Part shown: positions 744-2,461 of the stretch, one piece after another
How the letters are laid out: each line of letters starts with the position of its first letter
How positions within the stretch are numbered: the first letter of the stretch is position 1
Assembly: GCA_024640135.1 (NCBI GenBank)
Contig: JAHEFO010000012.1
Span: 1-35,485 of the forward strand
Source: Acidobacteriota bacterium
GTDB taxonomy: Bacteria > Acidobacteriota > Vicinamibacteria > Vicinamibacterales > SCN-69-37
Length of the DNA stretch: 35,485 nt
Direction of reading: 5' to 3'
The notes under the pieces: generated by a model
Told to the model about the DNA's origin: nothing
The model's database searches: none
What the model saw: the letters and a program-made list of their open reading frames with translations, nothing else
Translations under genes and position numbers: made by a program

Positions 744-1319
744 ATGGCATCCCTGATAGAGGCGATCGAGATCAAGCGGAAGTCGTACTTCGAGTACGAA
801 AACGCGCCCTACAACTGCATTGACGTTGACGTCTCGAAGCCCACAGCCAGAGGTGGCCAGACGCTCGTGCGCGTCAAGATGCGCAACCTGCTCACCCGGG
901 CCGTGTTCGACCGCACGTTCAAGGCGGGAGAGAAGTTCGCGGAACCCGATCTGACCAAGGTGCCGACGACGTTCCTGTACTCGGATTCAGACGGGCACCA
1001 CTTCATGGATCAGGCGACGTTCGAGACCCTGACGTTGTCTGACGACATGCTCGGGGACGATCGGTACCTGCTGGTCGACAACCTGGAAGTTCAGGTGCAG
1101 AAGTACAACGGGAATCCGATTGCGGTCATGTTCCCGGCCCACGTGGAATTGGCCGTCAAGTCGTGTGAGGGGGCGGTTCGGGGCGACACCAGTAGCGGCA
1201 GTGTCACCAAACTCGCCGTCCTGGAGACGGGCCTGCAAGTGCGCGTGCCGCTGTTCATCAAAGAAGGCGAAAAGGTGAAGGTTCACAGCGAGACGCGTGA
1301 GTTCGCTGGAAGGGCGTAG
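744..1319 (+). CDS. efp: Elongation factor P family protein, EfpL/YeiP-like
   Basis: EF-P family proteins bind between the ribosomal P and E sites and relieve stalling at polyproline stretches. At 191 aa this has the usual three-domain length: an N-terminal KOW-like barrel (about 1-67) and two OB-fold domains (about 70-130 and 135-190). The ribosome-contacting loop reads SKPTARGGQ with Arg36 at the tip. EF-P proper usually reads PGKG with a modified lysine, whereas PTARG is the loop of the E. coli YeiP/EfpL branch. The C-terminal REFAGRA also matches the RRYMGRA type of ending of that branch. The start ATG is preceded by AGG at 738-740. The gene sits directly before a DisA_N-like protein, six bases apart. 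Family assignment is firm; assignment to the EfpL branch is from motif reading and would need a tree. Confidence 0.88.
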   Translation: MASLIEAIEIKRKSYFEYENAPYNCIDVDVSKPTARGGQTLVRVKMRNLLTRAVFDRTFKAGEKFAEPDLTKVPTTFLYSDSDGHHFMDQATFETLTLSDDMLGDDRYLLVDNLEVQVQKYNGNPIAVMFPAHVELAVKSCEGAVRGDTSSGSVTKLAVLETGLQVRVPLFIKEGEKVKVHSETREFAGRA

Positions 1320-1324
1320 GAGGG

Positions 1325-2461
1325 ATGACCGAGCCCGCGTATCCTGTCGCGCGCCATGTCGCGGCGACGGTACACGAACACTTTGCCCGCCACCTGGCTG
1401 CCGCCCGCGCGAAGGGCCGGATCGACTTGGGCGTCGTGCCAGACCTCGCGGCCATTGAAGCGATGATCGACACAGCCTTCTGGGCCAGTCTTCGCCGCGA
1501 GGAGGGGGTCATGCCGACGATCTCGCTGGCGTTGTTGCCGCCCGGTCATGCCGGCCAGGCGCTCACGTTTTCCCAGTGGCTGCCACTGCGTCCGGCCGCG
1601 ATCGCCAAATTGGCCCCGGCCGTCCAACGTCCGGGCATTCACCTGGGCGTCTGGCCCGTCGATGGAGCGCTCCGGGTCTGGGGAACCACCCGCAGCATTC
1701 CCGCATTTTGTTTCGTGCTGGAGGTGATCGGCTCAGGTCTCCTGGTGATCAAGCATCGCAACGAACCCTTCGGCAAGTTCGTCAATATTGCTGTGCTGGA
1801 AGGCGACCAGATCAAGATCGTCGACGAAGGGACGGCAGCCGGGCCGGACTGTCCGGGTCTGCTCAGGGCGCTGCTTGGCCAGAATGAGGTCAATACGAGA
1901 GGCGAGTCCGTGAGCCTCCTCGTGCACCTGGCCGCGTCGATGCGGGCGCATGGTCGCGGCGGTGCCCTGCTGATCGTGCCTGAGGGGGACGACCAGTGGC
2001 GGGAGTCCGTCGTCGAACCAGTCGTGTATGCGGTGGCCCCGCGGTTCACGGAATTGGCCGACCTGATGGGGCGGGAACACGAGGAGCGCCGCACGCACGA
2101 ATGGCAGGAAGACCTGAGGCGGTCGGTTGACGCGATCGCCGGCCTGACGGCTGTGGACGGCGCGATGATCATGACGACCGCGTATCACGTGCTGGCATTT
2201 GGCGCCAAGATCAGCCGTCGGCGATCGCGGCCGCCCGTCGAACGAGTCCTGGTCACAGAGCCGATTCGCGACCACGAACCCGAGTTGGTGACTCCTTCAC
2301 AGTTGGGCGGGACGCGCCATCTCTCGGCCGCCCAGTTCGCCTGGGATCAGCCGGAAGCGACCGCGCTGGTCGCGTCGCAGGATGGGCGGTTCACGATCTT
2401 CCAGTGGTCCCCGTTCGACAGCATCGTTCACGCCCATCGGGTCGAGGCCCTGCTGCTTTGA
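1325..2461 (+). CDS. Putative sensor (DACNV-like) plus DisA_N diadenylate-cyclase-like domain protein
   Basis: A soluble 378-aa protein without signal peptide. The C-terminal third (about 255-378) resembles the DisA_N diadenylate cyclase fold: a DGA motif at 278-280 followed by a strand ending LAFGAKI, and GGTRHLSAAQ at 328-337, which matches the GTRHR motif region. In DisA-type enzymes DGA and RHR contact ATP for c-di-AMP synthesis; here the third position of RHR is Leu333. The N-terminal 240 residues, with GGALLIVP near 218, resemble the DACNV sensor domain described alongside such cyclases; this naming is from memory of the family. The start follows a purine-rich GGAGGG that touches the ATG, an unusually short spacing, so an upstream GGAAGG (1308-1313) may help. 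Probably cotranscribed with the EF-P family gene. Catalytic activity is uncertain because of the substitution. Confidence 0.65.
   Translation: MTEPAYPVARHVAATVHEHFARHLAAARAKGRIDLGVVPDLAAIEAMIDTAFWASLRREEGVMPTISLALLPPGHAGQALTFSQWLPLRPAAIAKLAPAVQRPGIHLGVWPVDGALRVWGTTRSIPAFCFVLEVIGSGLLVIKHRNEPFGKFVNIAVLEGDQIKIVDEGTAAGPDCPGLLRALLGQNEVNTRGESVSLLVHLAASMRAHGRGGALLIVPEGDDQWRESVVEPVVYAVAPRFTELADLMGREHEERRTHEWQEDLRRSVDAIAGLTAVDGAMIMTTAYHVLAFGAKISRRRSRPPVERVLVTEPIRDHEPELVTPSQLGGTRHLSAAQFAWDQPEATALVASQDGRFTIFQWSPFDSIVHAHRVEALLL

Follow-up and report, generated by a model that had tools for sequence, protein, structure and literature searches.

The protein described here is a real, conserved and unusual member of the diadenylate cyclase (DAC) fold, and the DACNV family to which it belongs is widespread. 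Its gene was found in the window, the whole stretch of 35,485 nucleotides that was analysed, which comes from a soil bacterium of the Acidobacteriota; a plasmid search with the gene gave zero matches. The motif RHR serves as a diadenylate cyclase signature, and in the window protein it reads RHL, while the (V/I)SEE motif of DACs reads ASQD. A preliminary description had placed DGA at residues 278-280, GTRH at 329-332 and Leu at 333, and had proposed a DAC-like protein with a deviating RHR motif; the translation and the model described below agree with it on these points, and no true RHR was found anywhere in the protein. The Pfam family DACNV was matched with 96.1 bits against a cut-off of 27 (Table 1). 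DACNV was reportedly named in a comparative-genomics paper, and our literature searches on it found nothing on the family, by which we do not claim absence from print.

Table 1 Positions in the window of the gene, the parts of its protein and the upstream neighbour.
Feature	Coordinates	Strand	Remarks
DACNV-DAC protein gene	1325..2461	+	378 aa, ATG start; stop codon within coordinates
N-terminal half, residues 1-170 (DACNV 'sensor' and following strands)	1325..1834	+	predicted degenerate DAC-like fold (AF2 model)
Pfam DACNV match, residues 37-122	1433..1690	+	PF21751
C-terminal DAC-fold half, residues 186-378	1880..2458	+	structure alignment of AF2 model
GALI-like motif GGALL, residues 212-216	1958..1972	+	Gly213 in 128/128, Leu215 in 108/128
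DGA, residues 278-280	2156..2164	+	Asp278 and Gly279 in 127/127 readable rows
Lys295, LmCdaA Tyr187 position	2207..2209	+	by-eye alignment of the DGA-to-GTRH segment
GTRH and Leu333, residues 329-333	2309..2323	+	Leu333 codon at 2321-2323
SQD replacing SEE, residues 351-353	2375..2383	+	Ser351 and Asp353 in 126/126 readable rows
EF-P family gene, EfpL-type loop PTARGG	744..1319	+	Pfam EFP_N/EFP/Elong-fact-P_C

The DAC fold and ATP site of the C-terminal half

Residues 172-378 of the full-length AF2 model (alignment A1, 29 relatives; mean pLDDT 82, pTM 0.66) were found to be closest to the DisA proteins of M. tuberculosis (MtDisA, 9y9y_D; Z 15.2, 133 residues, 2.2 Å) and T. maritima (TmDisA, Z 14.3), followed by CdaA, DacA, CdaM and CdaS entries with Z 11.3-12.8, and the best unrelated entry reached 2.7. 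Profile alignment with the canonical DACs of the phylum paired GGTRHL with GTRHRA and SQD with SEE, and in the pairwise profile alignment (E 2.6e-5, probability 75%) Leu333 fell on the second Arg of GTRHR. The structure match and the profile alignment therefore establish that the C-terminal half, as modelled, has the DAC fold despite a sub-threshold score of 11.9 bits (E 0.17; cut-off 27) for the Pfam DAC/DisA_N family (PF02457). The likeness to DisA_N suggested earlier thus stands for the fold and falls for the Pfam domain, and the missing Pfam match is no refutation because the model aligns to MtDisA so well. A sequence search of solved structures with the window protein gave no DAC match.

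The protein resembles CdaA/DacA (LmCdaA, BsCdaA, SaDacA) in the fold of this half (Z about 11-13), the GALI-like motif, DGA, GTRH and the Ser of SEE, but differs at RHR (here RHL), SEE (here SQD) and Tyr187 (here Lys), has an insertion that separates strand 4 from the GTRH helix, carries an extra N-terminal half, and gave no match to the CdaA_N membrane domain. In DisA the DAC domain is N-terminal and the C-terminal region binds DNA, whereas the window protein has its DAC half at the C-terminus and gave no HhH match in Pfam.

The passages of PMC7288161, a review, on the ATP site of LmCdaA give the side chains of Leu31, Asp71, Thr102, Arg103, His104, Ser122 and Glu124 and the main chain of Leu88, Gly101 and Glu123; in the CdaA-ATP structure, the phosphates are bound by Thr102 and by Arg103 and His104 of RHR, and the second Arg of RHR (residue 105) is not among these ten residues. 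The earlier idea that Leu333 removes a ligand of the ATP phosphates is therefore unsupported. All seven side-chain positions, mapped by alignment, are kept in the window protein, as Leu215, Asp278, Thr330, Arg331, His332, Ser351 and Asp353, the last of these standing in for the metal Glu, and Gly329 matches Gly101. Across the family, Gly329, Arg331 and His332 were found in 128/128 proteins and Thr330 in 118 (4 Ser, 4 Met and 2 Ala in the others); residue 215, where not Leu, is Ile, Val or Met, and Gln352 occurs in 119/126 readable rows. With the ATP-site positions so conserved, the capacity for binding is probably kept, and judged from these residues the C-terminal half is likely to bind ATP. 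Mutation of RHR to AAA abolished the activity of MtDacA and of B. thuringiensis CdaS, as stated in passages of PMC3328451 and PMC4568413, respectively; both mutants also lose the first Arg and the His, and the literature passages on DAC mutants contained no single-Arg mutant of RHR.

Residues 333 and 295 across the family

Comparisons across the family showed that Leu333 is a clade character, which rules out a local mutation or defect. Among 42 close relatives (L002, L008, L015 and L021 removed), residue 333 is Leu in 36, Ile in 3, Phe in 2 and Met in 1, and GTRH and the Ser after it are invariant. In the larger set of 128 proteins, from which 11 ORFs shorter than 300 aa and copies sharing the same final 150 residues had been removed, Arg333 is absent in 113 (Leu 96, Met 4, Ile 4, Phe 4, Val 2, Gln 2, Ser 1) and kept in 15, all distant relatives of the window protein; gaps occur at some positions in one or two rows, and counts are given as readable rows. 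In the tree of these 128, built without columns 295 and 333, one deep branch sets off 112 of the 113 proteins, and the distribution needs two changes, one on that branch (SH-aLRT 99) and one at L225. A tree of 68 rows (fragments L008, L070 and L014 and the duplicate L002 removed) needs a single change. Several long branches meet near the deep branch, which leaves the exact positions of L068, L069 and L223 in doubt. Whether Leu at this position marks a clade had been raised before, and both trees answer it: Leu or another non-Arg residue does. The canonical DACs inspected keep RHR in 31/31 cases, 27 of them found by a pattern that requires it and 4 by a looser one.

The DACNV paralogues that keep RHR (15/128; for example L018, L067 and L111) share with the window protein the DACNV and DAC layout, DGA or DGV, and SQD, but in them Arg333 goes together with a Glu, Val or Met as residue 295, and the E312, D341, Q342 and H106 of the window clade are unconserved in them. 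Such an RHR-type protein was also observed as a second paralogue beside the RHL form in Acidobacteriota and Bacteroidota genomes (L017-L020, L111, L122 and L123), some with Met or Ala at the Thr that binds ATP phosphate. L225, a DACNV protein of the RHR group, has changed independently from Arg to Leu at 333 and carries Val295. L024 lies on a MAG contig titled Cyanobacteria but groups within the Acidobacteriota clade, with which it has local synteny in common; the title is probably wrong.

One and the same deep branch carries the loss of Arg333 and the appearance of a basic residue at 295, which lies on a neighbouring strand. Residue 295 is Lys or Arg in 110 of the 112 readable non-Arg333 proteins (Lys 109, Arg 1) and in none of the 15 Arg333 proteins (Glu 10, Val 3, Met 2); the pairing is broken by L059 (Thr295 with Leu333) and by L225. 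E312, D341, Q342 and H106, the last in the N-terminal half, were fixed in the same clade. Lys295 falls at the position of LmCdaA Tyr187 in an alignment of strand 4 made by eye, where slippage by one residue is possible, and canonical DACs mostly have Phe or Tyr there. In the relevant passages of PMC10167629, Tyr187 stacks on adenine and must move as the active dimer forms. From sequence comparison, it is plausible that Lys295 compensates for the lost Arg333. The association is in effect one event and is for that reason not statistical proof of compensation, and an independent-pairs test yielded 2 pairs only, with which significance is unreachable.

The N-terminal half and the distribution of the family

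The N-terminal half is probably a degenerate DAC fold, as suggested by an AF2 model of residues 1-180 alone (alignment A2, 28 sequences; pLDDT 85.4, pTM 0.83). The five best Foldseek matches of this model in the PDB were DAC domains (E 0.07-0.16, probability 0.51-0.66), and the next, a non-DAC match, had a probability of 0.02. Among the VIA-align entries listed with Z >= 2, 38/40 were DAC domains, aligned in sequential order with Z 5.3-8.1, where Z < 8 may mean a shared arrangement only; the best was 2fb5 (115 residues, 3.4 Å), and the two non-DAC entries among those listed had Z 2.9 and 2.5. In the model the strands follow one another in a DAC-like way, but no helix stands where GTRHR would be, and the half lacks DGA and the RHR helix. 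Since it matches DAC domains by itself, the whole protein may consist of two DAC folds in tandem, one of them degenerate. The argument for a tandem is a structural one, because hhalign of the two halves gave a probability <1% in every setting tried and a duplication is unsupported by sequence; a DAC-like fold of this half is thus supported by the models, though unproven. The passages of PMC7288161 on the fold report no detected similarity of DAC to other domains. The Pfam entry, 'Probable sensor domain DACNV', agrees with the N-terminal match and the two-part layout of the family, but its 'sensor' ends at residue 122, and the model suggests a larger DAC-like domain reaching to about 165.

DACNV was found in 18/247 genomes sampled across the phylum, 65/162 genomes of the window's order, 39/162 of another acidobacterial class, 11/395 of Larkinella's phylum and 0/14 controls. 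The Bacteroidota copies are 50-60% identical to the window protein, with many invariant residues. Within the genus the gene is under purifying selection, with dN/dS of 0.056-0.098 between the window copy and three same-genus copies and dS saturated, and it is lost or broken in 3/7 genomes of the genus (G008, G013 and G011). In G008 (L157) it is frameshifted after about residue 273, which may be an assembly error, and in G013 (L154) it is reduced to fragments; the EF-P gene is intact in both. A search for a shared neighbour by ORF clustering at 32 loci returned shadow frames of the gene itself, clade synteny and one loose cluster, and was judged uninformative. Clade-specific synteny was seen as ScpA/ScpB-like genes in 4 Acidobacteriota loci and as Larkinella neighbours, and a loose cluster of signalling proteins lies near DACNV in 14/32 loci, half of them Larkinella.

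A canonical DAC is also present in 17/18 DACNV genomes of the phylum sample, so these genomes have no need of a second cyclase; the co-occurrence compares with 178/229 in the other genomes (Fisher p 0.13, relatedness ignored), and one genome, G169, has DACNV without a canonical DAC at 98% completeness. The window's genome carries one canonical DAC, a cdaA-like gene preceded by a folP-like gene and followed by a ybbR-like one (names of both neighbours from reading ORFs). TrkA_C is a known c-di-AMP receptor domain, and a check for such receptors, proposed earlier, found three ORFs with TrkA_C domains in this genome; the PgpH-type phosphodiesterase domain (7TMR-HDED) was not found there. The resident cdaA and the TrkA_C ORFs indicate that a c-di-AMP context exists.

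Possible functions and the EF-P neighbour

The fold of the C-terminal half, the conservation, the clade structure and the coincident change at 295 and 333 were computed directly; nucleotide binding, catalysis, product and regulation are what we infer. The explanation we tentatively prefer, at somewhat less than an even chance, is a DAC-fold, ATP/Me2+-binding DACNV signalling protein that has most likely remained a dinucleotide cyclase, or has become a slow and regulated form of it, under the control of its N-terminal half. In such an enzyme Asp278 would activate the ribose 3'-OH, Thr330-Arg331-His332 and Ser351 would hold the phosphates and Asp353 the metal, and Lys295 would give a positive charge in place of Arg333, perhaps across a head-to-head interface. 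The N-terminal half, being DAC-like without catalytic motifs, could control the C-terminal cyclase as an internal pseudo-partner or ligand sensor. We counted in favour the C-terminal fold, the kept ATP site, purifying selection, the 295/333 coincidence and the c-di-AMP context, and against it the dead RHR-to-AAA mutants, SQD (in which the metal-binding Glu becomes Asp), the sub-threshold Pfam DAC score, the frequent canonical DAC, L225 and L059, and the gene losses. A more specific form of this idea, a covalent pseudo-heterodimer of two DAC folds in one chain, in which the N-terminal half, having lost the catalytic motifs, would bind a regulator or act as a cap and the other half would keep the ATP site with its basic residue moved from 333 to 295, is speculative and rather unlikely; mammalian adenylyl cyclase C1/C2 offers the comparison.

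A pseudo-cyclase sensor, whose C-terminal half would bind ATP or c-di-AMP (perhaps from the resident CdaA) and signal to a partner with no catalysis, is a serious if doubtful contender. It would fit the retention of the binding residues while RHR and SEE changed, the lack of catalytic motifs in the N-terminal half, the cdaA of the genome and the canonical DACs of nearly all DACNV genomes. However, the ribose-contacting Asp278 and the acid at the metal position are as invariant as the phosphate-binding residues, the co-occurrence with canonical DACs is not significant, and G169 has no canonical DAC. Because Lys295 replaces the adenine-stacking Tyr or Phe and Gln352 replaces Glu, we also considered a cyclase that makes something other than c-di-AMP, for instance a linear or mixed dinucleotide or a cyclic mononucleotide, and the clade-specific E312, D341, Q342 and H106 that accompany Lys295 would suit it; we regard it as improbable. 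The DisA proteins of T. maritima and B. subtilis make c-di-AMP. Both are also without the Tyr (PMC6368335), and the adenine contact at 296, made by the main chain, cannot be read from sequence. That the gene is a decaying, non-functional remnant, as its patchy occurrence in the phylum sample and its breakage or absence in the genus might suggest, is hardly credible: the window copy is intact, its dN/dS is low, residues are invariant across two phyla and the gene is frequent in the order, and this reading is largely refuted by conservation.

The preliminary description had also linked the gene to an EfpL-like factor six bases upstream, as a possible tie between nucleotide signalling and ribosome stalling. 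The spacing is 5 bases, GAGGG, a Shine-Dalgarno-like sequence between the EF-P stop and the ATG, and no terminator-like site was found within 600-2700. The neighbour has an EfpL-type loop, PTAR, with Pro three residues before the loop Arg, a feature of EfpL in the passages of PMC11611912 on the loop, and the loop is two residues longer than in 6rk3; it scores 183.5 bits for the NCBIfam EF-P subfamily (cut-off 161) but 135.4 for EfpL (cut-off 216), so that the name EfpL holds for the loop and not for the family model. A second, divergent EF-P is present as well. Conservation of the pair was contradicted by synteny in 14 family genomes and 32 genome_contigs loci, and coupling as a general feature was rejected. 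The genes are directly adjacent in 4/14 family genomes, all of the genus, with DACNV intact in G000 and G009, frameshifted in G008 and a relic in G013, so that two of the four DACNV genes are broken beside an intact EF-P. They lie 1.3-1.7 kb apart (within 2 kb) with genes between in G005, G006 and G010; in G002, G003 and G007 they share a contig but are far from each other, and in G001 they are on separate contigs. G004 and G012 yielded no close EfpL copy, and G011 has EF-P and no DACNV. The intervening ORFs, named by sequence reading in the first case, are AAA-like ATPase in L151 (G005) and L150 (G006), and AroB-like and ComEA-like in G010. In G011 (C1:206077-208014, L153), a CPA2/Kef-type cation antiporter-like ORF, also by sequence reading, occupies the place of DACNV beside EF-P. 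Of the 32 loci, L021 and L022 match contigs of G012 and G010 in length and position, and the 30 others had no EF-P ORF near DACNV in the DNA examined, some stretches of which were short. Functional coupling to EF-P is therefore unlikely, and the proposed tie to ribosome stalling, which the close spacing and the local adjacency favour, is very improbable.

If the N-terminal half is a degenerate DAC, the 'sensor' label of Pfam needs changing. If the pseudo-heterodimer is true, the proteins would form a class of DAC enzymes that is regulated in its own way and may have a product of its own; the class would be frequent in Acidobacteriota and scattered among Bacteroidota. A large RHR-less family of the DAC fold with its ATP site intact tests whether the second Arg is catalytic or structural, and DACNV would extend c-di-AMP-type signalling in Acidobacteriota beyond CdaA.
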